Origin: a virus
Virus record (IMG/VR): IMGVR_UViG_3300020154_000130
Coordinates: 1 to 64,000 of that record
Strand: one strand, 5' to 3'
Length of the DNA stretch: 64,000 nt
Below the pieces are notes generated by a model, which did no database searches, had not been told where the DNA came from, and worked only from the letters and a program-made list of their open reading frames with translations. Made by a program: the position numbers and the translations under genes. Positions 7,005 through 43,467 of the stretch are shown here, piece after piece (position 1 is the first letter of the stretch; every line of letters begins with the position of its first letter).

Positions 7005-7010
7005 TTTATT

Positions 7011-7283
7011 ATGGATAGACCAGCCTGGACAATTCATAATAACACCAAAGGGAACAAACTGGCAACTGGTTATAATTGCCAGTTTGTTTTCACGCGTGAA
7101 TGCGAAGAAAGTCTTATCTCCTCATTAATGAATTTCCTTGAAGTAGAAATTCTGAGTGGAGAACGGTACGAAGAGGGCGATATGATAATCTACAACATCA
7201 ACCTCTCGGAGCAGAAACGGAGAGCACTAACCTTAGCCTTTAACCAGGTCGTCCTAAAGATGGACCCTAACAATCTGAACTAA
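7011..7283 (+). CDS. Hypothetical protein
   Basis: 90-residue protein with no recognised domain. It has a beta-rich N-terminus (YNCQFVFTRECEES) and helical C-terminus (SEQKRRALTLAFNQVVLKM). The spacing to the SSB-like gene is 6 nt and its stop overlaps the next ATG, so it is embedded in the same operon. Confidence 0.55.
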   Translation: MDRPAWTIHNNTKGNKLATGYNCQFVFTRECEESLISSLMNFLEVEILSGERYEEGDMIIYNINLSEQKRRALTLAFNQVVLKMDPNNLN

Positions 7284-10348: not shown

Positions 10349-10407
10349 TAATCATGCTCCTCATGAATTTCGTAATGGGTTCAAGATGGCAGAAAAAATA
10401 AAGCAGG

Positions 10408-24659: not shown

Positions 24660-25463
24660 TTACAGCTTCGTCAAAGTACAATTCATTTTGAATCGTCCTT
24701 CTTCCGTTATAACAAAAAGGCCATCCGCATTTTTTACAATAGAAACTGGCTCATCAATAACATGAGGTTCTTGAGGCTCTTCTGTGACAGGGGTGCCTGC
24801 TCCATCAATAAACTTAAAGTATTCTTCAGGTTTGTAAGCATGTACCCATACATTGTGATCCACACCTGTATATGTTTTCAGTTCGGCATTTATTCCAGCC
24901 CCAGCTAACGCACTTATAAATTTATCCGCATCGCTTTTTTCAAAAGTTATTGTGTTGTCAGCAAGTCCATGCCACCATTTCACAATGCTTCCTTCGAATA
25001 ACTTGATATCTGGAGTTTGCCCAGTCCAGCCACACACTATCCCATACGATTTAAAATAACCTGGCTTATTGCCATTCCATTCGTAAGCATGTTTTGCGCC
25101 CCCGATGGTTCCGTTGCCTCCGAGGCTTAAGCCAGTCAAATGCTTTTCTTCATAACCGAGCGAATCAAGATAAGCAAACAACGACCTAAATACCGAACGA
25201 TTCCAGGAATCACCATTCAATTGTGGGACAATAATCTCGTGGTCACCTTCGTAGCCTGAAGGGTTAATAACATCGCCTGATTTCGCATCAACTCTCCGCA
25301 ACAGTTTAGGTATCTCGTGCCTTTCCACAATAGATAGAGGTCCTCTGTCGGCAATCTCGCCTAATCCTGGAAGGAAAAGAATTACGCCTTTCGCAATTTT
25401 TGTTTCAGGAGTGTAACGATACAGCTCACCTGATTTACCATATTTTCCGATATGTCTCTTCAT
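24660..25463 (-). CDS. Alpha/beta-hydrolase esterase, likely virion-associated
   Basis: 267-residue alpha/beta hydrolase. The oxyanion segment is LFLPGLGEIADRG; the nucleophile elbow GLSLGG places Ser113; the acid is probably D169 in WHGLAD; the base is H203 in GVDHNVW. This complete triad resembles serine esterases and feruloyl/acetyl-esterase-type enzymes. After about residue 215 a short tail (EEPQEPHVIDEPVSIVK) may link it to the virion. No signal peptide is present. It lies among tail genes, so it probably deacylates surface polysaccharide during adsorption; substrate is unknown. Confidence 0.75.
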   Translation of the reverse strand: MKRHIGKYGKSGELYRYTPETKIAKGVILFLPGLGEIADRGPLSIVERHEIPKLLRRVDAKSGDVINPSGYEGDHEIIVPQLNGDSWNRSVFRSLFAYLDSLGYEEKHLTGLSLGGNGTIGGAKHAYEWNGNKPGYFKSYGIVCGWTGQTPDIKLFEGSIVKWWHGLADNTITFEKSDADKFISALAGAGINAELKTYTGVDHNVWVHAYKPEEYFKFIDGAGTPVTEEPQEPHVIDEPVSIVKNADGLFVITEEGRFKMNCTLTKL

Positions 25464-25465
25464 AA

Positions 25466-25894
25466 TTAAACAAGATTAATGATCCCTTCAGCGTTCCATT
25501 GAAATGTGAGTGTTCCTGCTTGCGCGGTGATTCCTCCTGCCCCAACGTCCTCGACCGCGATTAAAGGTGAAGTTGCCGCGTTACCGGAGTCGAGGTATAG
25601 CACTAGGTAGCGAAATACTTTTTGTGCGGTAAGCGTAAAAGTCACATCGTTTGCATCGAAGACGCCTTCGTTGTCAGTAGTATCAACGGTTGTTGATTTA
25701 CCGGCAAGCGTTGCTCCGCCTGTCGTATAGCCATTACCGTTTGCCAACTCATTACCGTTTATGTCATCCAAAAATTCGTCGGTGTCCAAATTGGGCACAT
25801 AGTCATCTGTAAGCAACATCGCCTTGATGGTGCCTGATCCGAAATTAATTCCCGCGTCGAGAATCTTCTTTTTTGCTGTGTTGTAAATATTCAT
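25466..25894 (-). CDS. Small structural protein of tail-fibre region
   Basis: 142-residue protein of a widespread phage family: a start like YNTAKKKILDAGINF, then IKAMLLTDDYVPNLDT, GNGYTTGGATLAGKS and a C-terminal beta part ending TLTFQWNAEGII. These proteins occur in structural regions of many phages and are probably virion decorations or tail parts; their biochemical role is unknown. It is flanked by two esterase genes. Confidence 0.65.
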   Translation of the reverse strand: MNIYNTAKKKILDAGINFGSGTIKAMLLTDDYVPNLDTDEFLDDINGNELANGNGYTTGGATLAGKSTTVDTTDNEGVFDANDVTFTLTAQKVFRYLVLYLDSGNAATSPLIAVEDVGAGGITAQAGTLTFQWNAEGIINLV

Positions 25895-25906
25895 TGGCGT
25901 TTAATT

Positions 25907-28159
25907 TTATGCGCTTTCTAAGAATTCAAGCAGATTCCATTGCCAGTTTCTAACTGGGGATCCCGTGCCAGAGCACCATGCTTCAATCTCTATCTCGTTA
26001 GATTCATTAGGTGATACCCAGTCAAATTCCATAAAGCGAAAAGTATTAGTCTCCGAGAACTGAACTATAGTTTCATCACCCTGCACCCTTACAGTGGCTT
26101 CAGATTTATCATTATAATTTCCGGATCCAAAACCGTGATAGACTGTTATTTTGTATTGCTTTGAAGGATTGAGAGCTTGAAGAGTCATCTTACCTGGACT
26201 TCCCGACGTTGCTACATTACCTTGAATCCGTAACCCGTCGAAATTGTGAGTTTTCTCAAACCCTGAAAACTTATGGTTGCACCTTGCTGCTGTGTTGATC
26301 CGATCTGCAGGAGCAGAGGCAAACTGAGTGTTGATGAGCAAATCATATGGAGATGCGGCGTTGGTATCATCTGACAGATTGGTAAAGGATGAGAACGCAG
26401 ATCCGGAACTCATGTTCATCGTTCTGCCAACAGTATGATCTGTTGTTAATGTGCTCCCAAAATCAACTATGAACCGACGTCCTCCACCATCAATCACCAA
26501 CTTTAAATTTGTTAACCTTGTCTCAAGGTCTGTTTTGGTTGATCCGGCTGATAATCTTCTTACCTGTTGTTTTGCAAATCTCCAGTTTTGAATAGTGGGT
26601 CGCGTCTCTGCATAATCAACATGAAGTGTTGCATTTTCCTCAACGTCCTGGCTAAGCCTCCATAGCCATTCAACAAAGTCAAACAGCGCCGTTCCATTCC
26701 CATCAGTGCGATATTGTCTGCTGTAACAGTTCGTGTTCCATAAAGTAGAATTATGGCCATTGACCAGAACATTTCCCCAAATAGCCAATGTTTCCGGAGC
26801 AACAGTATAATTTAATGCTTGTGTGCTATTTAATACCGATTGATTTGGTATCGTCGCCGTAGTATCATTGGTGGCGGCGACCCATAACATCGGCGTATTG
26901 ATATAATCAGACCATGTGTGGCCACTGCCAAGATCACTCGCTACAATCACATGCCCTGCACTGCCTGGAACTTCAATCTCTGTTACGCCATCCGACAACG
27001 TCAATGTTCGTGTTTGATTCCTGTCTCGGAGAATTGTCCTACATATAAACCCACCTCGTGACAAGCCGGTGTCATAAATCCGATTAAGGTTAATGCCAAA
27101 TTCCTCATACGCAAATACAATCAGATCATCATAATCAGCGTCTACCAAAAAATCATTTGCCGTTATCTGAGGGTAAAGGAAAATGCCCTGAGTTGGCTGA
27201 TCGAATCCGCGATTGACATAGTATGGATGGCCTGCCTCAAAAAGATCGCTGTGCTGGTACGAAATTGTTATTGATGCTCCATTTGCTGGCGGTGTATCAA
27301 ATAATAAACTGAACGAACCATTGGTGGACGAAACATCCATCGTGCCGGAAACGCCATCGCCTTCAATTGTTCCTCCAATCTTTCCTCTTGCAACTTCAAC
27401 ACCGGCAACCTTAATAACCACTGAAGTGGAAAGAACATCTTCCACACCATTTGCAAAATTACCTCCAAACGTTGTGTCGGATCCATCGCCAGTCCCGACA
27501 CTCAGATCTGTATCCGTACTAACAACTCCTTTTCCTCCATCTCCATGATAAACGATATAGAGAGGAAGATTTGTTAAATCAGCTAACGGAGGAATATACA
27601 CGAGTACATCCTTCATGCTTCCAGCACTATTGAATTTGGTAAAATACAATTGTGCTTCCGGTTGTGGCCCTGGGCCGGATTCATAAATAACTGTTGGAGA
27701 TAATCCAAGGATCAATCCCTGTCCCAACCCAATTGATTTTAAAATTCTTCTGTCGGGTGACAGTCCGTATAACTGAGTAATCCCTAATGAAGATAAATAC
27801 CGTAGGTTTTTCAATGGACTTAAACCATTGACTGAAGTATACACCGGCTGTCTACTAGACACCATTCTCTTTGTTGAATTGATACCACTAATCGAAGCGG
27901 ATGCAATAGAAGCTGTTAATGATATGTTTTTAGATACAGCCAACGCGCTCAGATTCAATTCTCCAACGCCAACATTTACAATTGTTGTTTCCTGGCTTTG
28001 GAGTTGCGGAGAAATTGCATCCACTGACAATTCTGTCGCAGACACAATTATAACTTGCGTTTTAGTAGAGTCAAGTCCGGCTAAACTTAATGAAGCAACC
28101 CCCACAGGCACAATATGGCCTGACGAATGAATTGTTGACATTAATAAGCTACGACTCAT
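25907..28159 (-). CDS. Tail spike-like esterase with inserted beta-sandwich
   Basis: 750-residue modular protein. Residues 1-165 are repetitive (VASLSLAGLD, VGVGELNLSAL, GLSPLKN, GLSPDRR), likely a trimerising or attachment region. An esterase core follows: LYIVYHGDGGKG at about 200-211, elbow GLSRGG with S367, acid D432 in ATNDTT and base H469 in GHNSTLW, similar to polyhydroxybutyrate-depolymerase/feruloyl-esterase types. Residues about 215-305 (beginning VGTGDGSDTTFGG and ending ITISYQH) interrupt the core and look like a beta-sandwich module of phage tail proteins. Residues 560-750 form a C-terminal beta domain that may bind carbohydrate. Likely surface-glycan deacylase. Confidence 0.75.
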   Translation of the reverse strand: MSRSLLMSTIHSSGHIVPVGVASLSLAGLDSTKTQVIIVSATELSVDAISPQLQSQETTIVNVGVGELNLSALAVSKNISLTASIASASISGINSTKRMVSSRQPVYTSVNGLSPLKNLRYLSSLGITQLYGLSPDRRILKSIGLGQGLILGLSPTVIYESGPGPQPEAQLYFTKFNSAGSMKDVLVYIPPLADLTNLPLYIVYHGDGGKGVVSTDTDLSVGTGDGSDTTFGGNFANGVEDVLSTSVVIKVAGVEVARGKIGGTIEGDGVSGTMDVSSTNGSFSLLFDTPPANGASITISYQHSDLFEAGHPYYVNRGFDQPTQGIFLYPQITANDFLVDADYDDLIVFAYEEFGINLNRIYDTGLSRGGFICRTILRDRNQTRTLTLSDGVTEIEVPGSAGHVIVASDLGSGHTWSDYINTPMLWVAATNDTTATIPNQSVLNSTQALNYTVAPETLAIWGNVLVNGHNSTLWNTNCYSRQYRTDGNGTALFDFVEWLWRLSQDVEENATLHVDYAETRPTIQNWRFAKQQVRRLSAGSTKTDLETRLTNLKLVIDGGGRRFIVDFGSTLTTDHTVGRTMNMSSGSAFSSFTNLSDDTNAASPYDLLINTQFASAPADRINTAARCNHKFSGFEKTHNFDGLRIQGNVATSGSPGKMTLQALNPSKQYKITVYHGFGSGNYNDKSEATVRVQGDETIVQFSETNTFRFMEFDWVSPNESNEIEIEAWCSGTGSPVRNWQWNLLEFLESA

Positions 28160-29994
28160 GATTGAACCTGGCTAATTGTATAAAGGATTGTGGTTGAATT
28201 AAAATACTCGCAGATAATAAAATTGTCTACGTTGGTTACGTAAGAACCATTGAGCCTCTTGAATTCTGAAGGCCATGCCGGCTCCTCATCATCGTTATGA
28301 CGAATGGTTTGAGATATCCTTTTTCCATTAACAACCGACACGGTTAATGGTCCTGTAAGCGCAGCTTCTACTCCATAACTACGAAGACGGTCAAAGGTGA
28401 TTTCATTTGATTCTGTCGCGAGAGCGCCAATTTCATTCCAGGCTTCTGGAAGCAACAGGTTAAAACCGAGAAATTTCTGTTGCTTGTATCCATAGATCTT
28501 GAAATAATTTTCAAGAAAGTTAAACGTAATTGGGCTGTTCGGCCTGCCTAAAAAGGCCTCTGGTGAGGTTAATTGAAAACCATCAATGTTGTCGAATTTT
28601 ACTGAACTCAGTGGAAATTGAGGTAGCAACAATTTTACTATCCCCTGAGCAAAACGCCCTCCTGATATGACGCGTATAACAAAATCATCAGACGTGATGT
28701 CGAGAAACAGGCTTTCTTTAGGTTCTAAAAAGCGATCAATCGCTACGGAGTTGAATGCTGAAAAAGTGTGTTGTGTTCCGGTGTCTGTAGTTAGATTAAA
28801 AATAAGTAACGCCTTACCATTGTCACCCAGGATATAAAGGTTGTCTCCTCTTTTCTGGACTGTTCCCATGAATGAAAATAAATCATACACCTCATCGAGC
28901 AGCTCCCCATGATTAGTCACATAATTGTATTTCCATATCTTCCCAGTAAGTAACCCGATATAAATATAGTCGCCATGTTCAACCGCTACCTTAAAAGTAC
29001 TTGTCCCGGGAGCGTCCCCTGTGTAATTGGCTGTTGAGTTATTGATCCTTGTGTTAACATTTGTTGATGGATTAAAGCAATTTAATCCGCTATTTCCTCC
29101 AAAATAAAAATTACCATCATTGGCTTCTATTAAAAAACTTGTAGAGAGTAAATAAATGAGGTCTCCTGTATAGTTTTCCTCCGAATTATGGGCTGAAAAG
29201 TATGTCTGCTCCTCCGTTTCAAGATTGAGCACACCAATTCCGGTTGAATGAGTAAACACAATAGAGCTTTCATCACTGGTTAAGATAAAATTTCCTATGA
29301 TCGAACCCAGCAGACTTATTTTTGAGGATGTCTTATTTACTACATCAAATTTGTATAACTGCGAACTGTTAGCGAAGATGTAGAGATTATCACCTACCCG
29401 GATGGCATTTGTAAACCTTCCATCAGTTGCGTCCGGAAATACCTCTCCAGTATAATTTTCAGAATCGAAAGAGAACTTCTCAAACTGGCCAATGCCATTG
29501 TTTAATTCGTAATACATCCTGAAAATACATGGCTCACATTTAATACCCTGTATTTCGTCAGCATCAAAAATAAACCACTCCTCTAAAATGCCATTTACTT
29601 CATCGTTGATTGTTTGAAAAACATCAACAAACCCATTTGTTTTTAATCTGTCTTTGACAATCTCTTCTCCGGAAAAGACCAGAAGCCCGGCCAACGTACC
29701 TATATCCTCTGATAACTTGTCGGGAGAAAGTACATCTACGAAAAATTGTTGAGTAAGCCTGAACTTATCGCTAGGAGTTGAATAATTTAACCCTGGTGTT
29801 TTCTGGATTAAGTCGTCATCACCGGTGCCGTTCTTCCACCAGTATTCAGTGTCCACAATGATTACCGTTCTTTTTTCCCGAACCGCTTCAGGCACAGCTG
29901 CATTCGCTGCGGCAACAGATTCATAAGGTCCAGTCCATTCACTATCGGGACCTGAGGTAAGCCTCTTTAGGCCAAATGGTATTTCTAAGCTCAT
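28156..29994 (-). CDS. Tail-fibre protein with probable beta-propeller
   Basis: 612-residue protein. The N-terminus (TGPYESVAAANAAVPEAVR) with YWWKNGTGDDDLI is a short module found at the beginning of phage fibre proteins and may attach to the fibre shaft. The middle (about 185-460) has repeated beta-blade-like units (DNLYIFANSSQLYKFD, DYIYIGLLTGKIWKYN, DNLYILGDNGKALLIF), suggesting a beta-propeller. The C-terminus is a beta domain. Coupled by 4-nt overlaps to both neighbours. Probably a receptor-binding or spike component. Confidence 0.65.
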   Translation of the reverse strand: MSLEIPFGLKRLTSGPDSEWTGPYESVAAANAAVPEAVREKRTVIIVDTEYWWKNGTGDDDLIQKTPGLNYSTPSDKFRLTQQFFVDVLSPDKLSEDIGTLAGLLVFSGEEIVKDRLKTNGFVDVFQTINDEVNGILEEWFIFDADEIQGIKCEPCIFRMYYELNNGIGQFEKFSFDSENYTGEVFPDATDGRFTNAIRVGDNLYIFANSSQLYKFDVVNKTSSKISLLGSIIGNFILTSDESSIVFTHSTGIGVLNLETEEQTYFSAHNSEENYTGDLIYLLSTSFLIEANDGNFYFGGNSGLNCFNPSTNVNTRINNSTANYTGDAPGTSTFKVAVEHGDYIYIGLLTGKIWKYNYVTNHGELLDEVYDLFSFMGTVQKRGDNLYILGDNGKALLIFNLTTDTGTQHTFSAFNSVAIDRFLEPKESLFLDITSDDFVIRVISGGRFAQGIVKLLLPQFPLSSVKFDNIDGFQLTSPEAFLGRPNSPITFNFLENYFKIYGYKQQKFLGFNLLLPEAWNEIGALATESNEITFDRLRSYGVEAALTGPLTVSVVNGKRISQTIRHNDDEEPAWPSEFKRLNGSYVTNVDNFIICEYFNSTTILYTISQVQS

Positions 29995-32237
29995 GATGCT
30001 GTTGTAATTTGATGTCGATGATTTGATGAATAAGGAACTCCGACAGTCATCTGATAGATGTTATAGGCCCTATTGGCCCCCCCTGCATCAACCAAGTCGA
30101 TGGTTCCGGTCAGAACATAAGATGAAGTGATATCGGCATTTAAGGCGTCGAGATCAACGACAGAGGATATGGTAACTCCTGGAGGCAACGCCACAAGGAA
30201 TTTCGTTTGTGCTGTCCCTGTCTGTAAATTGAAAGTGGAGGCTCCTGTATGATAAGCGCTATTCAATGGTCTTAAATCGTCTGAATCTTCCGGAAACTCC
30301 GATACGGGACTAAAAAACCGATAGAATCTAGCAGTGATCGTGAAAATTAAAGAGTCAATATCTTGCTCTGTAGTTTCATCATGCAGGATGCCCTTAAACT
30401 GTTGTGTGGCTCCGTTTATATTCAATTGAATTGGAGTGACCTCTACTGCCTGACTTCCGTCATTTGCAGTGTCATTAAGGAGGATTGTCCCCGCAGTAAC
30501 ATCAAAAATATCAATGAAGTCCACATCGCCACTATTCTCATTAATTCCCCATGTGAAAGTTTTGCTCCCTGAGATCGTAGCACCAACCTCCACAGTTACT
30601 GCCTGACCTGAAATTGAAAATGATGTGAAGGCTGGATTCTTATATTTGTTCAGCGCGTCAAGTATAACCTGAACGGCAGTCTTCCCACTTGATGGTATAA
30701 CATCACCATTCTTGTACTTCCCAAAATTTTCACCAGTATCCAATACAACTGTCGTATCAGAAGCAAACAGTGTTGATCCGCCGGTACCTGGAGGACCTTG
30801 CCATGGTAACTCAGAACTCCAATGCCCAGATGCGTCGGATAGTTTTTGATAAATCGTCTGAGGAGACACATCGTTTCGAAGAAAGGTGAATCCCTTTAGT
30901 TGATCATCATATGCTCCTCTGTTGGCAAGAGAGTCTACAGCTCCAATAACAGGTCCGGAACCGGGAGGTCCCGCTGGACCAAGAATGTTGATGGCAAGAT
31001 CTGGAGTGAGGGTATAACCATTCAATCCTAAATACCATCTGATTGGGTTTGGTGGATTCGTACCTGGATTAAGTACTGGCTTACTGCCTGATCCCCCTGT
31101 CCAATCAATTAATTCTAATACACTCTTTGTGGTGCTAAGTTGAGTTACGGCTAATACTGGAGCCCATCCATTATCACCTAAGAACTTAATACCATTATTC
31201 CACCCTGCTGGAACTGTAGCATCCCCGCCACCGGGATTTCTGAAATACAGATATCCGGTATCTTCTTCGAGGAAAGTAAAATTCTCATCCTCTTCATTGT
31301 ATGCAGCTGAAAACCGATCATTCGAATCTCCTCTTGCTGCAACCAGGAAAGGATCACCTTGCTCACCAGTGTCCCCTTTTATCGATCCAAGGCTTTGCCA
31401 CACCTCTTCATCAGAATACCTCCACTCAAGGTCGTCTCCATTGCGCTGTAAAACGATCTCTCTTGCATCATCTGAAGCTAGGGCCAAAATCTGATTATTG
31501 ATCGAATTAAGCACAGACGCCAATCCAGATACATTGGCAATTGAATGCGTGTGCCCGGTTTGAGAATACGCGGCTAATATTGTTGTTAAATCGGCACTGC
31601 TGATTTTAGCATTCCAGTTCGTCCGGTCCTCAGTGCTTACGTGTACTCCCGTGCCTCCAATGCTGTTAAAATGCGTTAACAATGATTGTATTCGAGTTAA
31701 ATCATCAGTCGTCAAAGCATTTAACACAACGCTGTTAGAATGCGTGTGAAGCCTGATATCATCCGTATAAACAACTTCATCCAAAAAGCCAGGAGGCAGT
31801 ATGTCATCCGGACCAACTTGATTGTCTTCAAGTGCCGTAATTCTTGCGCTTAGGTTCGTGTCTGCCGCTATGCGTGCAAGAATTTCTGCAGCCAGATCAG
31901 TAGCCGTTGCGTAACTCCCGGATGGAACGTTTAGATTCTCAATGATCGGCATTGAGAATGAAATGTAATTTTCTGCTAAGACCTTATTAAGCTCAAGCCA
32001 GTAATTGAAAAAATCAATTGTATCGCTAACCTGCCTTTCTGTTAATCCTCCGTAAGCAGAATCTTGCAATAAGTCTATGAAGTCGTAAGTCTCCGAAGCT
32101 TTCAATAATAAGTCGTCACTGCGATCGCTTTGATATCCCGAGTAATCAAACTCTCCAATAAGTTCCTTTTGAAGGGCCCGGACTTTTGTTCGTGCTTTAG
32201 CTACGAATTCAGAAATTTTAGTTGTTAACGTTGCCAT
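29991..32237 (-). CDS. Tail fibre protein
   Basis: 748-residue fibre-like protein. A helical N-terminus (KISEFVAKARTKVRALQKEL) is followed by heptad-like segments (LAAEILARIAADTNLSARIT), HTHS/GHTHSI motifs typical of fibre shafts, a short collagen-like GPAGPPGSG and a module GWAPVLAV ... LIDWTGGSGSKP shared with the next gene. The C-terminal 200 residues (FYRFFSPVSEFPE to the end) resemble the C-terminal domain of the protein encoded at 35345-36166. Likely trimeric and involved in host recognition. Confidence 0.75.
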   Translation of the reverse strand: MATLTTKISEFVAKARTKVRALQKELIGEFDYSGYQSDRSDDLLLKASETYDFIDLLQDSAYGGLTERQVSDTIDFFNYWLELNKVLAENYISFSMPIIENLNVPSGSYATATDLAAEILARIAADTNLSARITALEDNQVGPDDILPPGFLDEVVYTDDIRLHTHSNSVVLNALTTDDLTRIQSLLTHFNSIGGTGVHVSTEDRTNWNAKISSADLTTILAAYSQTGHTHSIANVSGLASVLNSINNQILALASDDAREIVLQRNGDDLEWRYSDEEVWQSLGSIKGDTGEQGDPFLVAARGDSNDRFSAAYNEEDENFTFLEEDTGYLYFRNPGGGDATVPAGWNNGIKFLGDNGWAPVLAVTQLSTTKSVLELIDWTGGSGSKPVLNPGTNPPNPIRWYLGLNGYTLTPDLAINILGPAGPPGSGPVIGAVDSLANRGAYDDQLKGFTFLRNDVSPQTIYQKLSDASGHWSSELPWQGPPGTGGSTLFASDTTVVLDTGENFGKYKNGDVIPSSGKTAVQVILDALNKYKNPAFTSFSISGQAVTVEVGATISGSKTFTWGINENSGDVDFIDIFDVTAGTILLNDTANDGSQAVEVTPIQLNINGATQQFKGILHDETTEQDIDSLIFTITARFYRFFSPVSEFPEDSDDLRPLNSAYHTGASTFNLQTGTAQTKFLVALPPGVTISSVVDLDALNADITSSYVLTGTIDLVDAGGANRAYNIYQMTVGVPYSSNHRHQITTAS

Positions 32238-35200
32238 CTAAATTCCCCATGCTTCAATGAAACCACTATTACGATAAGAAGCCCCTCCTGCAACTCTTTC
32301 AGCTGAAAGGTATATTGTCATAAATTCATTTGCAGGAACCGAAATCATGGCCTCGACAGGAATTACCCTTCCTCGAAAATCAGATCCTTGAATTTCAGTC
32401 ACTCCAACTTTGTTCTCATCTGCCGTCGTCAAAGAGATCGAGGTCCAGTCAGAATCAGGATTGTCTCCCGGTTTGTATCTAATCCGAACTAGTATAAGTG
32501 CTGGATCCCCGGTTGTTGAAAACTTCACAAAGCCCACGGTAGCAAAGACTCTAAACATGCGTGAGGCATTGTGGGTGTTTTGAAATGTCAATCGTCTAAT
32601 AAAAACATGGCCTGACGATTCCGACATTGCTACAGTTGGAAGCGTAGCGCGTAGGCCGCTAAAAGCATATTGCTGTGGCCTCATGTTGGTACTTGGACCT
32701 GACGGACCACGCTTGTCAACAGCATTCGCTAACGTGGTTAATCCGGTTGACCCAACATAAGAAGAATCAGTATTCGCCGCAGGTTTGGTCCCTTGTCCAC
32801 CAACCCAATCAATAACTTTTTCAACTACCCTTTGGTTATCAACTATGTTTGCTATAATAGGACTCCAACCATTATTTCCTGATACCGCAGGAGGTGGAGT
32901 GTCCCCATTCACGCGATTTGGATCTCCGTATGAAGATGATAATGGATTGTAGTTAACTCTTGTTAGAGTGGCCGGGTCTGCAGCAACGTCTGTTCTTAAT
33001 AAGAAAAACGCAGAGCACATATAAGTTGCATCCTGACCACCGGTGCGTGCAGTTTGGCTTATTGTCCATCCAGTAGGAATAAGGGATCCTGTGCTAGGTA
33101 TTGCCGGGGCAGTTGGAATACCATCAACTGACTCTTCAACATTTTTAAAAATGAATAAGTTAATGCCTCCGTTAGGCCTGGCTGATTCTGACCTTAATCT
33201 TATCTCGCCTCCCCATACACCGTTTTCCCGAATAATACAAAACCAAGCATTTGTTCCGGATTCAAAGTAATTAATATTAAGGGCCAGTACTTCTGACTTA
33301 GTTAAGGTTCGTGGTGTAAAGTCTGTCGGGTTTCCAGGATCAGATGATCCGTTGCCCCAATATAGAATTTCTAATCCGACAGCATCCGCGAGATCAGTTA
33401 ATGTGACGCGATCCTCTCTTGTAATCTCTCCAAATTGAGCAACCACCTTAAGTACGGCATATGTCGAAATACTTGAGCCCGAAATGTAAGCCGATGCCGC
33501 CTCTACATCACTGGTCCCTAAAGTGGTTCCATCACTCTTTTTAATTCCATTGGTAATAGCAGCTCCTGTTGAGTCAAGGAGTGTCCATTTGAAAGACACA
33601 TCGGTTGTATCAAGAACGCCTCCTTTGATGAACTGTCCATCAAACTTGTAAAGCCCGGTGTGGTTTCTAAACGTGTTCCCATGGACAGATAAAATATCAG
33701 CAACAAACGCACTTGCGTCATCTTTCGCATCACGTAAAAGGATGTTGGCCGAATATGGTGCACTTGGATTTGATGTGTGTGAAATTTCTGTCGTGTACTG
33801 CTGCGACGTGTTTATCCCTAACGGAAAAACCTTTAAAGACTTGCCATCAGCACTCACCTGGTGATAGGCATTAAAGTTAACACCAAGGTTTATCGCGTAC
33901 CGCGTGTCTTCATCAAACACTATTTCGGTAGTTCCTCTAAACCATTTCACCTCAGTGAATCCTGTGGTAAGCTCAGTTACTCCCTTGAATAATTTCGCGG
34001 TGATATCGATAGAAGCAATGTTGTCTTCGAGGTTTCCTGATGAGTTTCTTACCTCATAAAATATGTCACCGGGAGTAGCGTCGAGCACGGCCAGGATTGC
34101 ATCTAAACCATCAAACCTCCGAGGGAAAGACCATGCCGTTTTAAATGAGCCGTCTGAATATTTCGTACACTTACTCATATACAGGATATGAGTGTCACGG
34201 TTATAATCAGGCGAAGCATCACTCCAGTCGTTTGGACTTGCTCCTCCTACAGGAATAGGCAGTGTCGGGATGGAGCTGGTTAAGTCACCTTGAGTAACTC
34301 CTATCGGAAATGCCTTAAATACAAAATCGTCAAACTCACCACTTTCCTGATCAATCTTACTGATTGTCCAATTCGATGATGATGAACTGGTCCTGCTGGC
34401 CATGTGAGTGTCAAGGCCGGGAGTATAGTATCCCCTCCAGAATGTATCGTTTAAGAAATCGGTATTACCAGGTGTGTTTCCATAACGAACCAGGATAGGA
34501 TCATCACTCACCAGGATAGGAATATCCCACTCTGATTTAAGGATTCCGTAAGGGTTTCTTAACGATTGTGAGCGGTATAAATTTTCGGTTAATATCCTGG
34601 TTTCATAATCATCACCAGGAGTTGTTAACCATCCTGTTGGCAATTGTAGATAGTCAGCAGGTTGTATTGGTCTGCCTGGGGCTGGATCATTTTTATCAAC
34701 CCAACGAAAGATAACATCGATATACTGGTTGGCTTCATAGTCCCCACCCGCTGAAAGAGAAACTGGAATGCCCCATGGCAATGTAGATCCGGATCTTTGT
34801 CTGAACCACACATGGTTCAGCGTTGGATCAAATTCATTAGCCCATATTATGTCAGACGTGTTGCCACCGGTATACGCCGCATCAGTTGGATACCCAGCCT
34901 GATAAGCTTCAGAGGAAATTTCAGTTGGAAGGAATTTTGGCCGCTTACCTTCAAAGCTTGGTGCATATTGGGTTTCAATTGTGCCCTCGAAATTGCTTTG
35001 ACCTTGCGGTACCGGTATCCAGTAATCTGAGAGAACATATCCGGAAACTTCATTAACCCTGGTGTTCTCAGGGGGCATCTGTCTCAGGTAGTACTTTGTC
35101 CTGGGATGAATGGTCCCTCCTGACAGCGCATGTTCCGAAACAATTACCTCCATGTCCTTGGCCAGATTGGAGTAAGGGATATCAGCGAGTGCCTCCAGTG

Positions 35201-35345
35201 TCGGTACCGGATAAGTTGCCGCCTTAATTGTCCGTGCATCTGCAACAGGAAAATCCTCTGACGTGGGCCATATGGTACCTCCAAAAGGCGTAATGCCCAC
35301 AAGGGCATTTTTAATTGAAGTCAGTAAATTACCAAATGCTCCCAT
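32238..35345 (-). CDS. Large tail fibre protein
   Basis: 1035-residue beta-rich protein. N-terminus LTSIKNALVGITPFGGTIWP; central Ig-like or carbohydrate-binding-like segments; then GWSPIIAN ... VIDWVGGQGTKP and KRGPSGPS, a module shared with the downstream fibre gene; C-terminal jelly-roll-like domain (RMFRVFATVGFVKF). No catalytic motif was seen. The start sits one base before the upstream gene's stop. Confidence 0.7.
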   Translation of the reverse strand: MGAFGNLLTSIKNALVGITPFGGTIWPTSEDFPVADARTIKAATYPVPTLEALADIPYSNLAKDMEVIVSEHALSGGTIHPRTKYYLRQMPPENTRVNEVSGYVLSDYWIPVPQGQSNFEGTIETQYAPSFEGKRPKFLPTEISSEAYQAGYPTDAAYTGGNTSDIIWANEFDPTLNHVWFRQRSGSTLPWGIPVSLSAGGDYEANQYIDVIFRWVDKNDPAPGRPIQPADYLQLPTGWLTTPGDDYETRILTENLYRSQSLRNPYGILKSEWDIPILVSDDPILVRYGNTPGNTDFLNDTFWRGYYTPGLDTHMASRTSSSSSNWTISKIDQESGEFDDFVFKAFPIGVTQGDLTSSIPTLPIPVGGASPNDWSDASPDYNRDTHILYMSKCTKYSDGSFKTAWSFPRRFDGLDAILAVLDATPGDIFYEVRNSSGNLEDNIASIDITAKLFKGVTELTTGFTEVKWFRGTTEIVFDEDTRYAINLGVNFNAYHQVSADGKSLKVFPLGINTSQQYTTEISHTSNPSAPYSANILLRDAKDDASAFVADILSVHGNTFRNHTGLYKFDGQFIKGGVLDTTDVSFKWTLLDSTGAAITNGIKKSDGTTLGTSDVEAASAYISGSSISTYAVLKVVAQFGEITREDRVTLTDLADAVGLEILYWGNGSSDPGNPTDFTPRTLTKSEVLALNINYFESGTNAWFCIIRENGVWGGEIRLRSESARPNGGINLFIFKNVEESVDGIPTAPAIPSTGSLIPTGWTISQTARTGGQDATYMCSAFFLLRTDVAADPATLTRVNYNPLSSSYGDPNRVNGDTPPPAVSGNNGWSPIIANIVDNQRVVEKVIDWVGGQGTKPAANTDSSYVGSTGLTTLANAVDKRGPSGPSTNMRPQQYAFSGLRATLPTVAMSESSGHVFIRRLTFQNTHNASRMFRVFATVGFVKFSTTGDPALILVRIRYKPGDNPDSDWTSISLTTADENKVGVTEIQGSDFRGRVIPVEAMISVPANEFMTIYLSAERVAGGASYRNSGFIEAWGI

Positions 35346-36857: not shown

Positions 36858-36875
36858 TTATGAAGATTGTTTACT

Positions 36876-36912
36876 GAAAAAATAAAAGGCCGACCATCCA
36901 AAGTAGTCGGCC
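36876..36912 (-). terminator. Rho-independent terminator after the gene at 36945
   Basis: GGCCGAC at 36888-36894 pairs with GTCGGCC at 36906-36912 (11-nt loop). Read on the minus strand the stem is followed by a U-rich run (complement of AAAAAATAAAA at about 36877-36887). Separates the capsid genes from the fibre and connector genes; read-through must occur or a promoter must lie in the remaining 20 nt. Confidence 0.75.
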
Positions 36913-36944
36913 CTGGCTTGCTGCATTTCAAAGAGCAAAAAGCA

Positions 36945-37853
36945 CTAAACTATTTCTTCGTACCGAAACTCTTCGGAGTGCCTTTTTCTAAGTTCAGCAA
37001 AGTGTTGTGATCCTTCTCTTGTAATGAGAAAACTCATTAAGAACTTACGAGGATCATCACCCGGTTCGACTTTTACAATATTTACCTTACCTGGTTTCCC
37101 GGCATTACGCATCCATACCCACGTCCTTATATCTTCGTGATCAGAGAATAAAATCCATTGATGCTGTATAGCATAGTCAATTATTACTCGAGCTTGCTGC
37201 TCCTCAGATCCGGAGAATAAAAGGATTAATTCAGGATGAGTTTGTGAGAAAGGCTGAAGGAAGTTTCTCAACAATCCACCTCTTAAATTTGTAGGTATGC
37301 TGAGATCCGGTTTCTTCAACGCATTCAGGCGATAAGCAAGGGTTGACAATTCATTATCGTCGGCAGATAATAGGTGTCCTCCTGCATGAATTTTATACTC
37401 AAAAGAATTTTTCGCAACCATGAGATCGCGCTTCTCATCTACTTCGTAGAAGATAACAGGCTTCTTCCTGTTGCGATAAGGATTATCCCGATTCTTGTTG
37501 TGTCGCTTTAAATAGATATACAGATCATTTGATTCCGGCGTGCAAATAATTATACCGCTTCCATCAAACGTCACATACCCTGGCTCCGGCTGCATTATGG
37601 TTTCGCCATTCTGCATCCTGATTGGTTTGAAGTCCTTGATGTTATAGATCAACTTATTCATGCCCGGGCTTTTCTTATCTAAAGCATCCATGATCCGATC
37701 GATACCAGCCAGGGTATAGCCTGGCTTCCGGCATGGTTGTTCTGTGATAGGATCGATTGTTCCAAAAATGGCAAGTCGGAACTCTTGCTTCTGGTCACCT
37801 TCCAATGGTTTAACCTGGAGGCCTTCAGATAAAATGTCGTTTATGCTATTCAT
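36945..37853 (-). CDS. Hypothetical protein downstream of capsid gene
   Basis: 302-residue protein of unknown function. A well-ordered mixed sequence with no membrane segment; blocks such as PGYTLAGIDRIMDALDKK, KKPVIFYEVDEKRDLMV and NLRGGLLRNFLQPF. It is isolated between two terminators, which suggests expression by read-through from the capsid gene at a set ratio. A head protein is the simplest guess. Confidence 0.5.
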   Translation of the reverse strand: MNSINDILSEGLQVKPLEGDQKQEFRLAIFGTIDPITEQPCRKPGYTLAGIDRIMDALDKKSPGMNKLIYNIKDFKPIRMQNGETIMQPEPGYVTFDGSGIIICTPESNDLYIYLKRHNKNRDNPYRNRKKPVIFYEVDEKRDLMVAKNSFEYKIHAGGHLLSADDNELSTLAYRLNALKKPDLSIPTNLRGGLLRNFLQPFSQTHPELILLFSGSEEQQARVIIDYAIQHQWILFSDHEDIRTWVWMRNAGKPGKVNIVKVEPGDDPRKFLMSFLITREGSQHFAELRKRHSEEFRYEEIV

Positions 37854-37882
37854 TTTCGCTTTGCTTTGTTGTTGTAAGGAAA

Positions 37883-37906
37883 GAATGAAAGGGCCGAAGC
37901 CCTTTC
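37883..37906 (-). terminator. Terminator with UUCG tetraloop after capsid gene
   Basis: GAAAGGGC at 37887-37894 pairs perfectly with GCCCTTTC at 37899-37906. On the minus transcript the 4-nt loop is UUCG closed by C-G, the extra-stable tetraloop common in intrinsic terminators. The following run is AUUCUUUCC, only partly U-rich, so termination may be incomplete. Lies 11 nt past the major capsid stop. Confidence 0.65.
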
Positions 37907-37917
37907 AAACATTTATA

Positions 37918-39315
37918 TTAGGCTGCTTGCCACAGTAAGAACTTATGACGGCAGCGGATTTCAAGACCTACATAACGCAGGAAGTGAACTCCTTTTTTGG
38001 CTTGATCGTTTGTTGCGCCCTGGCCAGCAAATGCACCAGTTTCCCACATGAAGTAATCATCCTTGATGATGTTGGAGTTGGATGCAAACGCATTCAACGG
38101 AGGAGTTACTTGCATGATGTATGGAACCTGTGAAGGTGATCCGGCAGCTAAATCAGGATTAGCGTCTCTTGTATATCCAGCAGGGATAAAGATTCCCATG
38201 TGGCGGAACGGCATGCCTTCAGCTCCAAGCGTATCCTTATGAGAAAGGATATCCCACTTCTGGTTATAGAATTCATATTCACCAACAGAATAGGATTTGA
38301 AGTTCAGCTTGATAGCCTGTTCAGATCCACCTGAAAACGGTGTGAATGAAATATTACCAGTACCTCCCTTAGCGAATTCAACTAAGAAATCCTTGAGTGC
38401 CAACTGAAGGTTATGACCTTCACCAATAAAATACTTGTTTTCACCGTAAGAGTTATCCAGGTGAAGCATTACTTCATCAAAGGCAGCTCCATCAGGCTTA
38501 CCAAAGTATTCCAGCTCAGCGCCACCAGAACGAATCTGAGGAATCAGACCATGAGTCGTTTGAACAACGCTACCATTCTTGTTGGTCAACCCGCTAGATT
38601 GGTTAGAAACCAAAAGCGCTAATTGAGTTTGTAACTCAAATCGGTTTGCTGTTGCCTGAATGCCTCTATACCACAGATATTTTTTACCTGGTACCGGTTC
38701 GAACCATGCCTGGTTGTACATCTCCTCATCCGTTACTTCAAAGAACTCACGGATGATGTGAAGCTTATTGGTGAGTTTGGTGTATTGTTCAACGCGGCTT
38801 TCAGTTTGGCCACTTCCTTCCGGCTGACCATTGGAAAAGAACACCATGTTTGTACCAACTACACCTACCGATGCGATATCCTGAGATGGATCTGTTTTCT
38901 TTACAGTGATAACATGGGCACCTGGAGTTCTGACAATGGTTTCCACATAACCAGTGGTTTTTCCATCTACAAACATTACCAGCTGACCCTCTACAACAAA
39001 TGATGTTGCGCCTGCTCCACCAATATCTCCGTGTGCATCTGCAGAAAGAGTGATATCGAATTTTGCACCGTTAGCAGCAATCGCTGAGATCTTCGCGGTT
39101 CCGGCCATGTACTGACCTTCTTCGTAGAAGCTGTAAGAAGAGCGTTTCGTTTTTCTGGTGGCCATACGGCCTTCCATTTTCTTCAGCCAGTTGAGTGACT
39201 GAGGGGTTGGAACTTTCATGGAGAGGTCTTGTGCAACCTCGGTCTCATAAAGGTCCAACGGGTTGAGGAGTGCATAAGTTTGATTACTCTGCACCGCGCC
39301 CAATATTTGATCCAT
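37918..39315 (-). CDS. Major capsid protein
   Basis: 465-residue protein directly downstream of the scaffold-like gene and followed by a strong hairpin. Blocks such as KMEGRMATRKTKRSSYSFYEE near residue 47, REFFEVTDEEMYNQ and YRGIQATANRFELQTQLAL in the middle, and a C-terminal beta end (HFLRYVGLEIRCRHKF) fit an HK97-fold coat protein with E-loop, long spine helix and P domain. Size, position after scaffold and downstream terminator support the call more than sequence recognition. It forms the icosahedral shell. Confidence 0.75.
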   Translation of the reverse strand: MDQILGAVQSNQTYALLNPLDLYETEVAQDLSMKVPTPQSLNWLKKMEGRMATRKTKRSSYSFYEEGQYMAGTAKISAIAANGAKFDITLSADAHGDIGGAGATSFVVEGQLVMFVDGKTTGYVETIVRTPGAHVITVKKTDPSQDIASVGVVGTNMVFFSNGQPEGSGQTESRVEQYTKLTNKLHIIREFFEVTDEEMYNQAWFEPVPGKKYLWYRGIQATANRFELQTQLALLVSNQSSGLTNKNGSVVQTTHGLIPQIRSGGAELEYFGKPDGAAFDEVMLHLDNSYGENKYFIGEGHNLQLALKDFLVEFAKGGTGNISFTPFSGGSEQAIKLNFKSYSVGEYEFYNQKWDILSHKDTLGAEGMPFRHMGIFIPAGYTRDANPDLAAGSPSQVPYIMQVTPPLNAFASNSNIIKDDYFMWETGAFAGQGATNDQAKKGVHFLRYVGLEIRCRHKFLLWQAA

Positions 39316-39334
39316 TGTTGTTACCCTACAATTT

Positions 39335-39352
39335 GGTTAATTAAGATTAACC
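39335..39352 (-). promoter_or_regulatory. Small hairpin between scaffold and capsid genes
   Basis: GGTTAAT at 39335-39341 pairs with ATTAACC at 39346-39352 (4-nt loop). It lies in the 49-nt spacer before the capsid start and has no following U-run, so it may stabilise or process the capsid message rather than terminate. Confidence 0.35.
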
Positions 39353-39364
39353 TGGACTTTTGCT

Positions 39365-40585
39365 TTACATGCCCGCTGTTTGAAAGACTGATTTCGCCAT
39401 CTCATTCATAGGATTGACCGCTTTTGCCGGAGGCGCTGGAGGCGCTGGATTAGGATCAGTCGGTGTGGAAGGATTGCGATGAGTCTTGATCATTTTGGCT
39501 AGCATATCTTCCCGCCCTTGTTTATACGCAGAGTTCGCGAGCTCGTCCAGGAGTTCAATTCTCGTTGCGAAGTCTGCAAACTTCTGATGATCAATTTTTC
39601 CGCTTGCGTCCATGATTCCACGTTCTGTAAGCTTTGTGTCCCACCACTCCATGGGTGAAGAAACAAGCTCAACAACTTTAGGTAGTTGGTTTGCGGCATT
39701 GAGCACGTAGTTGACCTTTCCGGAGACTTTCTCTCCATCTGAATCCTGGGCGGATAAGTTCAGTGAGACTCCTTGAAAGGTTGCAAGCTGTGTCTGAACG
39801 AAGTTCCGGTATTCGGCATTCTCTCTGGCTATCTGTTCAGGAGACTTGTACCCACCCTGGGCACTGTTAAAGTTCTCTTGAATTTTAGCTAATTGTGTAC
39901 GTGCCGAATTGGTTTCCAGCTTTTCTTGGATTTTTTGATATTCGCTAGGGGGATTTTCCTGATCATTCGGATCCCCAAACTTCTGACGATCACTTTCCAT
40001 GAACAAAGTCCTTATCTCATCCTGAGATAATCCTGACGATGTTATTTCCGGTTTCATCTTAAAAGCTTCGAATCGAAGTTGCTGGCCTTGCAACTGTTCA
40101 AGATTTAAGCTTTGGACGCGCATGACGTGCATGGCGGCATCCAGTGGTAAACCATCAATCTGATTCGCTAATTCGAATAGCTTTTTCGCTTTATCCGATT
40201 TGAATGTAGACTGATTCTGGAGTTCGATCAGCTGTTGCTGAAGTTTATCTTGATTGGCCAAATAGGCCTGAAATTCGTCTTGGGTCTTAATCCTTCCTCC
40301 GGATATTGCCGCGAAGTCAACCATTGGTGGAGCCGGGTCAGGAGTAGGTGGAGTTGCAGGATCCACAGGCGGGTTCGCTGGCGGTACTGAATCTGATGAT
40401 GGAGGAACCGCCGGTACTGGTGGCGTTCCTGGAGCAGGAGCAGCTGGTGACGTCACTGGCTCAGCGGGAGGTGTCGCCGGTGGTACCGCAGGATCCACGG
40501 GCGGAGTCGTCGTTGACGTTATCTCTTTGCCGTGAATGATATCCTTGAGCTGATCGGCGCTTAAGTTTGATAGGTTTGGATCCAT
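39365..40585 (-). CDS. Capsid scaffold-like protein
   Basis: About 406 residues if started at 40585 (MDPNLSNLSADQLKD); the frame is open to 40621, 12 codons further. The nearer start follows an A/T-rich run (CAAAAAATT), the leader style seen elsewhere. Residues about 25-90 are extraordinarily rich in Pro, Ala and Val (PAVPPATPPAEP, PPANPPVDPATPPTP), then long helices with Gln/Glu (QDKLQQQLIELQNQ), and a second Pro-rich stretch near the end. Helical, low-hydrophobic and immediately upstream of the capsid gene: typical of a scaffold that templates capsid assembly and is later removed. Confidence 0.65.
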   Translation of the reverse strand: MDPNLSNLSADQLKDIIHGKEITSTTTPPVDPAVPPATPPAEPVTSPAAPAPGTPPVPAVPPSSDSVPPANPPVDPATPPTPDPAPPMVDFAAISGGRIKTQDEFQAYLANQDKLQQQLIELQNQSTFKSDKAKKLFELANQIDGLPLDAAMHVMRVQSLNLEQLQGQQLRFEAFKMKPEITSSGLSQDEIRTLFMESDRQKFGDPNDQENPPSEYQKIQEKLETNSARTQLAKIQENFNSAQGGYKSPEQIARENAEYRNFVQTQLATFQGVSLNLSAQDSDGEKVSGKVNYVLNAANQLPKVVELVSSPMEWWDTKLTERGIMDASGKIDHQKFADFATRIELLDELANSAYKQGREDMLAKMIKTHRNPSTPTDPNPAPPAPPAKAVNPMNEMAKSVFQTAGM

Positions 40586-41096
40586 AATTTTTTGCTTTGA
40601 CTTTGTAAAGGGAAATTTCAAGATCTGAACATCTTGACCATTGATTCGCCTGTTAAATTATCCAACAGGTTTTTCGTCTCAAAATGAAAAAAGTCTAATC
40701 GCGGGAATTTGAAAAAAATCGAAGGTTTTCGACAGTAAAAAGTATAGACAATACCTTTTTTACTTAGGGAAACAACCTTTATAAGAGGTTCTCTTCCTAG
40801 AGGTCATGACCATTGCCTACTATCAAGCCGGATAAGTCTCCCCTCAGAGCAAAAATCGCTTGACGATTCACCATCGACGGCCGGAAATTGTTGTTGTTCC
40901 CGTATGACCAAGTTGACAAGGTGGGTCAGAGCTTGGATTTTTTGGCCGCTTTCGTAGGATAGTGCTAGTTTTTATACGCCGAGTCATACATCTAACCACA
41001 GTGTCAGATTATCCCGTCTACATTCAAATTTGAAGAAGTACGCGAGGCGTAACAGGTTTTTAAGGAGCTAAAATATTTGACGAAATCAACCCCTTC

Positions 41097-41186
41097 TAAC
41101 TGTTAACTGTTGGCAATTAAATAATAATTATTACTTTTGTCAAGACTTTTCGACAGGCCACTTCCAGCCTTTCGTAACTGTTAACT
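41097..41186 (+). repeat. Paired 12-mer TAACTGTTAACT flanking promoter
   Basis: TAACTGTTAACT occurs at 41097-41108 and again at 41175-41186, 78 bp start to start, in the same orientation. Each includes the palindrome GTTAAC. The first copy ends beside the promoter's upstream TTG element and the second lies about 36 bp past its downstream element, an arrangement suited to a repressor binding both operators and looping. Confidence 0.6.
41110..41139 (+). promoter_or_regulatory. Bacteroidetes-type promoter for the gene at 41271
   Basis: TTG at 41110-41112 and TACTTTTG at 41132-41139, separated by 19 nt, match the Bacteroidetes primary sigma-factor consensus (TTTG near -33, TAnnTTTG near -7). Transcription would start near 41146 and run through a hairpin into the rightward gene. 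This is the best promoter seen in the window. Confidence 0.65.
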
Positions 41187-41188
41187 AC

Positions 41189-41220
41189 CAAAAGGGCTTT
41201 TCGGAGCCCTTTTGTGTTTC
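41189..41220 (+). terminator. Leader hairpin / attenuator-like terminator
   Basis: CAAAAGGGC at 41189-41197 pairs perfectly with GCCCTTTTG at 41206-41214 (8-nt loop), followed by TGTTTCT. It lies about 45 nt downstream of the predicted start site and 57 nt before the start codon, so it may terminate a short leader RNA or act as an attenuator. Confidence 0.55.
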
Positions 41221-41270
41221 TAAAATTTTCTACAGTACTTTATGTCAAATTAAACTGTGGGATCTCACAA

Positions 41271-41825
41271 ATGGGACGTCTTATCGCATTAACCGCGAAA
41301 TCAAGAAATGGCCAGAACTTCGCTAAACCAAGAGTGGTTTACGTGCAAGAAGATGCTATTTCGATTACCCCCGGAAGCAAAACCGGAAAGGGTACTAAGG
41401 TCGTAGAAAAACTTGATGGCCGTGAAACGACCTACATAGTCTACGAACTTGCTATGCAAATTGAAGCACAAAGAAATCCGAGCTCTTCGGACGTTCTGGT
41501 GAAACAGCACCTTGCTCTCGGTTTAACAGGAGCTGGCACTACTCAGGCCGCTGGTACCGCCTTAACAAAGTACTTCAATGAGACAACAACAATTGGTGCC
41601 GCAGCAACAGAAGCTTTTAGATTTCCTGCTGCAACGGTCGGAAAAGTAATGGTTGTTGTTAACAATGATGCAGCTGGAGATGCGGCGAAAGTTTTTCCTG
41701 CCGATGATGAGTTTATCAACAACCAGGCTGTTGATACTGTTTACAGCATCTCTGGTGGAAATCGGGTTCACTTCGTTTGTCTTGAAGCTGGCAAATGGAC
41801 TGTTGCTGACGATTTTGGTAAGTAA
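41271..41825 (+). CDS. Lone rightward gene, putative decoration protein
   Basis: 184-residue protein (MGRLIALTAKSRN). The frame is open from 41214, but 41271 was chosen because it follows the leader hairpin cleanly. The N-terminal half has TETYIVYELA-like beta segments; the C-terminal half (FPAATVGKVMVVVNNDA, VFPADDEFINNQAVDTVYS, VCLEAGKWTVADDFG) resembles beta-domains of phage virion surface proteins. It is the only rightward gene in 44 kb of leftward genes and has its own promoter, putative operators and terminator, so it is probably strongly and separately expressed. Head decoration is the best guess. Confidence 0.6.
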   Translation: MGRLIALTAKSRNGQNFAKPRVVYVQEDAISITPGSKTGKGTKVVEKLDGRETTYIVYELAMQIEAQRNPSSSDVLVKQHLALGLTGAGTTQAAGTALTKYFNETTTIGAAATEAFRFPAATVGKVMVVVNNDAAGDAAKVFPADDEFINNQAVDTVYSISGGNRVHFVCLEAGKWTVADDFGK

Positions 41826-41845
41826 TTTAAGTTTTCCATAACGAA

Positions 41846-41879
41846 AAAACCCTGGACATCATCCAGGGTTTTCTTTTTT
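41846..41879. terminator. Bidirectional terminator
   Basis: AAAACCCTGGA at 41846-41856 pairs with TCCAGGGTTTT at 41862-41872 (5-nt loop). T-rich runs follow on both strands (CTTTTTT on +; the A-run 41844-41849 on -). It ends the rightward gene and stands at the stop of the leftward SGNH gene, so it can stop both messages. Confidence 0.85.
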
Positions 41880-43467
41880 ACCAGCCCTTACTTCGGATTG
41901 CATCAGCAATTATTTCTGTCAATCGCATTACTCCAAGATTATTGGGATGCAATCCATCTAAAGTCATTGAGCGAGGGATCCATCCGTTGGCGATATCGCT
42001 AAGATCATTTTCACTTCCATCACCGAATGATTGCATTTTTGTTAACGTGGCCACATAGTTATCAGGGTATTCTGCTAGGAGCCCTGCGTTAATGGCCAGG
42101 TAATTGTCATAGTAGGTACTATCAACCTCATTACCTTCAACTCCGTTCGGGAATGATTGAATGTACAACCACTTAACCGGATCAGTTGTCAAATGCGCAA
42201 CCATGTCATTTATCGCTGTGATCGCGCCTTCTAAAGTTTCATCACCATTAAGTCCACCATCAAGAATAACCAACAGCTTACCGTAATGTTCTGGCGTACC
42301 ATCAAATCGCGTTGCTTCTTGTGATAATGATGATCCGCTTACACCATCAAAACTGTAATCCCGCGGTCGATGCCCTTTAACCGGCAACCACATTGACAGT
42401 GTATTCGGTCCTTCAACAAAACTATCTCCGATGATATGCACCCCATCAGAAGGTTCCCATATTTCAATTTTTGTCACATAACCAACACGAATATTTGTTA
42501 ACCTGTTTGAAGGAGGACTCGATGTCGTTATCGGTAATCTTTCATAAAGATCGGTCGGAATTGCCAATGCACCTCCTGATACTTCAACCCCAGTTCTGTC
42601 ATGAACAGTTCCATCAAAGAGAGTGTACTTAATGTCATACGTGCCATCTGCAATAGCAATTGTTACAGCATCCGCATCACGCGAAGCTGCTCCGGACGTA
42701 GCGACGATGGGAGATGTAGCAAACCCACCTACTTCGTATTGAAAATGGTGGACAATGATTGATGTACCTACTGCTGGAGTATTGAAATTCGGACGTAACC
42801 GCGTACGTCTACGACCTGTGGTTGTTGGAGTTCCCTGAATAACAAATAGCCATAGCCGACCACCGTTCGGACCTTCTCCAAGGAAGATTGCATTGGTTAA
42901 CTCATTCGAAGCGCTTCCAGTATTAACGGTTAGAGTCGGAGTATCGAGGTGCATATTGGATGCAGTAAAACTTAGCACTGCGGCACTTCCGGCATCGGTA
43001 TCCTCAACCTGCATGAAGAAAGATCCGGTGGTTGCCGTGGTCTCCACGATTGCCCAAAGACACTCTAACTGAGACGCAAAATTACCATAGACACTTCCGG
43101 GAGAAGAAAGTATCCCAGTGCTTCCATTACTTACATATTCCCAGGCATCCAAGCCAGGAATAATTGATTCCCTCAGGGTTACAGTAGGTAGGTTTGATTT
43201 TTGCCAAAGGGCATCCTCCAAGTTTGAAGGATAATTAATGTTGGTTCTCGCTGGTTCAAACAATGCCCCCCTATCGGTCCGTCGTAATCCACTTAAAATA
43301 CTCGAAAATGTATTGTCAGCTTGTTGAGCCAAACCTGTAGCAGCTTCTGAATCTTCAACCGTCACAGGTATCCCAGTTTGAAGATTAAGTGATAGTAGTG
43401 CTGATGGAAGATCTGACACCATCACAACTCTTCTTTGAGACCTGCTCCTTGATCGTTTTGATATCAT
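41878..43467 (-). CDS. SGNH/GDSL hydrolase, virion-associated
   Basis: 529-residue protein. The last 185 residues form an SGNH hydrolase: block I GDSF with S349, block II Gly in GVSGSS, block III around DGGLNG and block V DGLH with D504 and H507. These enzymes are serine esterases, often acetyl-esterases on carbohydrates. Residues 1-340 are beta-rich (for example QVEDTDAGSAAVLSFT, GGRLWLFVIQG) with a jelly-roll look, perhaps carbohydrate binding or virion attachment. A basic start (KRSRSRSQRR) is unusual. Location between capsid and portal genes suggests it is mounted on the particle. Confidence 0.75.
   Translation of the reverse strand: MISKRSRSRSQRRVVMVSDLPSALLSLNLQTGIPVTVEDSEAATGLAQQADNTFSSILSGLRRTDRGALFEPARTNINYPSNLEDALWQKSNLPTVTLRESIIPGLDAWEYVSNGSTGILSSPGSVYGNFASQLECLWAIVETTATTGSFFMQVEDTDAGSAAVLSFTASNMHLDTPTLTVNTGSASNELTNAIFLGEGPNGGRLWLFVIQGTPTTTGRRRTRLRPNFNTPAVGTSIIVHHFQYEVGGFATSPIVATSGAASRDADAVTIAIADGTYDIKYTLFDGTVHDRTGVEVSGGALAIPTDLYERLPITTSSPPSNRLTNIRVGYVTKIEIWEPSDGVHIIGDSFVEGPNTLSMWLPVKGHRPRDYSFDGVSGSSLSQEATRFDGTPEHYGKLLVILDGGLNGDETLEGAITAINDMVAHLTTDPVKWLYIQSFPNGVEGNEVDSTYYDNYLAINAGLLAEYPDNYVATLTKMQSFGDGSENDLSDIANGWIPRSMTLDGLHPNNLGVMRLTEIIADAIRSKGW

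Follow-up and report, generated by a model that had tools for sequence, protein, structure and literature searches.

Three predicted serine esterases of two folds in the structural gene block of an uncultivated virus

What would a virus do with three esterases encoded among its virion genes? This question is raised by a window of 64,000 nucleotides, the whole stretch analysed here (positions 1-64,000 of IMG/VR record IMGVR_UViG_3300020154_000130, which derives from an uncultivated virus and is 76,327 bp long). The original prediction described three unrelated esterases in a virion gene block, all with complete catalytic residues. Reading frames of 267, 750 and 529 amino acids (aa) lie exactly where it had placed them: P0001, a stand-alone alpha/beta-hydrolase esterase (24660-25463); P0002, a fibre-like protein with an alpha/beta-hydrolase core (25907-28159); and P0003, in which a lectin-like domain of the head-spike-fibre type precedes a C-terminal SGNH hydrolase (41878-43467). 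All three are on the minus strand, as are the other features located in the window below, and the plus strand across the three genes has many stops. Among the window's open reading frames longer than 200 aa, only these three have a GxSxGG or GDS...DxxH signature, and the part of the record from 60000 to 76327 contains no further frame of either kind.

The identity of the virus frames any reading of these genes. No close relative of the record was found among GenBank phages, and single-sequence searches of IMG/VR with the three esterases and the capsid protein likewise returned no close relatives; a single-sequence search of genome contigs with P0001 found none. The distant relatives are Cellulophaga phages phi38:1, phi18:3 and Calle_1 and Maribacter phage Panino, a placement that rests on the terminase (25-27%), the capsid, the portal and a 1070-aa structural protein. 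The best explanation of these similarities is a podovirus-type phage that is a very distant relative of the Cellulophaga/Maribacter podoviruses, and by analogy with these relatives its host is likely a member of the Bacteroidota. At the contig end, just beyond the window, PRTRC plasmid-system genes (PRTRC_E, 2.7e-11; PRTRC_B, 5.9e-24, below its cut-off; PRTRC ThiF, 3.7e-70) adjoin a tyrosine recombinase gene (together at 10603-11613, 13378-14073, 14070-14939 and 15045-16328, counted within the record part 60000-76327), so that this virus may integrate or may live as a phage-plasmid.

Comparison with these relatives reveals a common gene order of terminase, portal, scaffold, capsid and neck/tail proteins. 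In the window, homology identifies the large terminase (46387-48642), the portal (43964-46390) and the major capsid protein (37918-39315; PHROG 13704), the last matching the capsid proteins of Cellulophaga and Maribacter phages at 24-29%. Relative to these phages the window has two insertions. The first, between portal and scaffold, consists of a gene for a 166-aa protein (43464-43964), which overlaps the P0003 gene by 4 nt, and the SGNH gene itself; the second, located after the capsid region and before the neck genes, is a fibre block that includes both alpha/beta hydrolases together with three fibre genes (612, 748 and 1035 aa; 28156-35345), the latter two with PHROG tail matches. The 748-aa and 1035-aa proteins (29991-35345) also have in common a segment of ~70 aa with 35% identity, pointing to domain shuffling within the block. 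Adjoining P0001 is the gene for a 142-aa protein (25466-25894) of PHROG 644, whose mycobacteriophage homologues are annotated 'minor tail protein'. Downstream of the fibre block are tail/neck structural genes with phi18:3 matches (18875-24165); specifically, 23509-24165 (a weak match) and 18875-22087 match gp112 and gp114, which are virion proteins by MS/MS. The portal, capsid and neck gene products of phi18:3 have also been detected in virions by this method. Because of this synteny, with neighbouring genes verified in virions, the esterase block can be regarded as structural. A side observation concerns PANI_CDS0069 of Panino (8229-13718; 1829 aa), which occupies the position of the relatives' largest structural protein and matches the 1990-aa protein of the window at 1e-6; its annotation as a 'tRNA methyltransferase' looks doubtful.

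Of the three proteins, P0001 is the clearest as a predicted alpha/beta-hydrolase esterase. Its nucleophile Ser113 (codon 25125-25127) is in a GLSLGG elbow, and Ser113, Asp169 (24957-24959) and His203 (24855-24857) are all invariant in an alignment with esterases from Flammeovirgaceae and Parabacteroides; residues 221-267 form a short C-terminal tail. When a profile of P0001 and bacterial esterases was compared with the PDB, it matched 3doh at 3.3e-37 and another esterase structure at 1e-29. An alpha/beta-hydrolase profile of 72 bacterial sequences also recognises P0001 (77 bits, 2.6e-23), as expected given that these sequences were collected with it.

P0002 has a more elaborate architecture. 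In its N-terminal region (27665-28099), probably a shaft, an LxGLSP-like unit of ~20 aa recurs about seven times, and its C-terminal beta-rich domain (approximately residues 515-750; 25910-26617; weak fn3 match, 0.047) is probably carbohydrate-binding; these two features make the earlier description 'spike-like' a reasonable one. Between them lies the hydrolase core (residues 165-505; 26645-27667), with an HGDGG oxyanion region, S367 in GLSRGG, D432 and H469, and within the core is a beta-rich domain of ~95 aa (approximately residues 213-305; 27245-27523) with a weak DUF2460 match (E 0.016). With this domain removed, P0002 scores 20.7 bits (5.7e-6) against the 72-sequence profile, compared to 12.4 bits (0.002) at full length and to a best score of 6.1 bits (0.17) among 500 shuffled controls. 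The profile recognises only the half from the oxyanion region to the serine; the Asp/His half is matched by no profile. The top PDB match, a weak one, is to the solved esterase LC-Est1C in two collinear segments, and there is a PHA-depolymerase match around the serine. A further weak match of P0002, in a 735-kb phage, fell in a glycosyltransferase-like region and was judged to be chance.

This evidence, weaker than that for P0001 but significant, identifies P0002 as a putative diverged member of the same family. Because one profile recognises both proteins, the three esterases cannot be called unrelated: they represent two folds, with P0001 and P0002 sharing one family. The kinship is visible only through the 72-sequence profile; direct BLASTP comparison of the two found no similarity, and hhalign with a three-sequence profile aligned only the serine elbow (probability 15%). 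AlphaFold2 models of P0001 and the P0002 core, run without an alignment, reached a pLDDT of 33, too low to establish the geometry of the triads.

The SGNH hydrolase domain of P0003 (residues 341-529; 41881-42447) contains all four blocks expected of this fold: S349 in HIIGDSF, GVSG, N407 in GGLN, and D504-G-L-H507. S349 is also kept in the Mwe-Yong1 tail spike, and the Asn block aligns with two phage SGNH proteins. The score against Pfam PF13472 (Lipase_GDSL_2; 17.1 bits, 0.0079) misses the gathering cut-off of 32.9, which is a database threshold rather than a biological criterion; membership rests instead on the motifs and on phage and PDB homologues. Specifically, the domain alone matches a solved tail spike at 5.8e-8, residues 280-529 match a Microcystis phage tail spike at 7e-7, and the protein matches PHROG tail-fibre families at 1.4e-10, such that P0003 is well supported as a predicted SGNH hydrolase. 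In the SGNH domains of MT835592 and MT835603 an extra domain separates block II from block III; P0003 has no such insertion. Thus, all nine catalytic residues proposed for the three enzymes are in place, although in P0002 D432 rests on a local alignment with another alpha/beta hydrolase and H469 on a GHN motif only.

Is such a set common? It had been suggested that most phages carry one such enzyme, but profile searches found none in any of the four relatives (phi38:1, phi18:3, Panino and Calle_1) in the stretches compared. Negative results for Pfam PF10503, PF13472 and PF02230 in the relatives carry no information, because the proteins of the window itself do not reach the cut-offs. From the compared stretches of these four phages, the three-esterase set looks like a feature of this virus's lineage and not of the wider group. 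Taken singly, the enzymes are of known kinds; three of them in one phage are unusual, though in principle not without precedent.

Two folds, the catalytic residues and the position in the structural block are what the sequence itself provides; from these we infer virion location, esterase activity, a glycan substrate and the timing of action. The reading that we favour, as moderately probable, is that these are serine esterases of the structural block, with P0002 and P0003 on the virion deacylating a host surface glycan and P0001 either virion-bound or free. P0003 would combine an SGNH hydrolase with a preceding lectin-like domain of the capsule-binding head-spike kind, and P0002 would carry its alpha/beta hydrolase inside a fibre, between a shaft of repeats and a C-terminal beta domain. 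Most likely both are on the particle, where they would take ester-linked acyl (probably acetyl) groups off the glycan during reversible attachment and leave its backbone uncut. P0001, whose gene adjoins that of the minor-tail-protein homologue, would either be bound to the virion too or act as a free enzyme. This proposal is supported by the catalytic signatures, the esterase profile and PDB matches, the lectin-SGNH fusion, the gene order, the PHROG 644 neighbour and a recurring pairing of enzymes described below; counted against it are the lack of a fibre domain in P0001, the signal peptide of a P0001 homologue and the Asp/His half of P0002, which has no profile match. The best reading, that virion enzymes would take acyl groups off polysaccharide at the host surface, has experimental precedent in SGNH fibres.

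The location of P0001 is uncertain, and a serious possibility, somewhat short of even, is that the particle carries just two esterases and that P0001 is a free enzyme, released at lysis here and secreted in relatives, that edits envelope or biofilm glycan of the host after replication. P0001 has no obvious fibre or attachment domain, and its nearest viral homologue (39%, with the same C-terminal tail), found on IMG/VR contigs 3300049201_000010 and 3300031911_000039, starts with a clear signal peptide as read from the sequence. The homologue directly follows a LamG+SASA fibre gene (region 5792-8642 in 3300049201_000010 and 4679-7529 in 3300031911_000039). Just downstream of it come a gene for a small membrane protein and a DUF5675 gene, a setting that points to secretion or a link with lysis in that lineage; because of the signal peptide, the small esterase may act outside the virion there at least. 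In contrast, P0001 has no signal peptide (its stop-to-stop frame extends by only four residues), and its gene sits between the minor-tail homologue and structural genes. The same contigs provide the recurring pairing. SASA is an SGNH-type carbohydrate esterase, and since the LamG+SASA fibre gene adjoins the homologue, the combination of an SGNH-type fibre and a P0001-type esterase occurs in a second lineage. This lineage resembles the window in having both genes, there directly adjoining, and differs in the signal peptide on the esterase, the DUF5675 neighbour and a different portal family.

The original prediction offered two readings of the set, stepwise loss of acyl groups from a heavily modified capsule and the use of several receptors, and both are conjectural. 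It is conceivable, if rather unlikely, that the set matches alternative receptors, found on several host strains or as phase-variable capsules, and that its members do not work one after another on a single glycan. Their three architectures and differing accessory domains are consistent with this idea, and there is general precedent for phages that bear more than one receptor-binding enzyme; yet P0001 and P0002 are so diverged, with no BLASTP similarity, that their sequences argue neither for nor against a common substrate.

A different placement is raised by residues 69-265 of P0003 (42673-43263), which match the NCBIfam GTA_spike_fiber domain NF048003 at 2.1e-12 and 47.9 bits (curated cut-off, 36). 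The 166-aa protein, a candidate adaptor or spike base, and P0003 could form a capsid-mounted spike that binds and deacylates capsule while the alpha/beta esterases act from the tail; if so, glycan esterases would be present at both ends of the particle. We consider this doubtful. The same region of P0003 also matches a PHROG annotated as a tail protein, which means that the domain is no proof of a position on the head, and the 166-aa protein has no homologue in the PDB, with no spike base matched even at E 10; because of this we do not file P0003 as a head spike. Finally, a purely carbohydrate-binding role for some of the hydrolase domains, with no catalysis, is very doubtful: P0002 has indeed diverged far and its core is interrupted by another domain, but no nucleophile, oxyanion or His/Asp motif has been lost, which argues for selection on catalysis.

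Deacylation of capsule by phages is known mostly from SGNH fibres. If virion-borne glycan deacylation is the correct reading, an SGNH protein accompanied by alpha/beta esterases in and next to fibres would add to the enzyme types known to edit glycans at adsorption, and the set of three would suggest that host surface glycans are multiply acylated. Since an SGNH-type fibre and an alpha/beta esterase are found paired again in a second lineage, cooperation between such esterases becomes a testable idea. The novelty indicated by the sequence is modest and is in the combination, as the components are of known kinds; the glycan function is plausible.

Comparison with characterized systems places each component. 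P0001 shares its fold, GxSxGG elbow, HGxxD and HNxW with the bacterial LC-Est1C/3doh/feruloyl-esterase-like group, to which P0002 has a weaker match; unlike these bacterial enzymes, the phage versions are encoded among structural genes and have no signal peptide, and P0002 is part of a fibre and has an insertion. The C-terminal SGNH segment of P0003 (residues 401-529) aligns end to end with the PDB tail spike 9sij/9sim, at only ~35 bits and with the upstream domains unmatched; a tentative identification of 9sij as RcGTA TspA was dropped because neither 9SI codes nor SGNH appear in the preprint. The head spike fibre of RcGTA, Rcc01080, for which NF048003 is named and which binds capsule (PMC10218006), belongs to the same lectin-like family as residues 69-265 of P0003, above the curated cut-off, but is not reported with an SGNH domain, and its spike base has no homologue detected here. 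Klebsiella prophage fibres also contain SGNH esterase domains, two of them shown to be active on p-nitrophenyl acetate (PMC13123978); those phages are temperate, and the sections consulted do not mention alpha/beta-hydrolase companions. Functional parallels are the SGNH fibres gp63.1 of Escherichia phage G7C and gp66 of Pectobacterium phage Possum, for which deacetylation of host polysaccharide is proven (PMC9569702). Like these, the window has an SGNH domain in a predicted receptor-binding protein, for which we propose O-deacetylation of a glycan; unlike these, the SGNH domain of P0003 follows a lectin-like domain of the head-spike type, its gene is between portal and scaffold, and the window adds two esterases of another fold.
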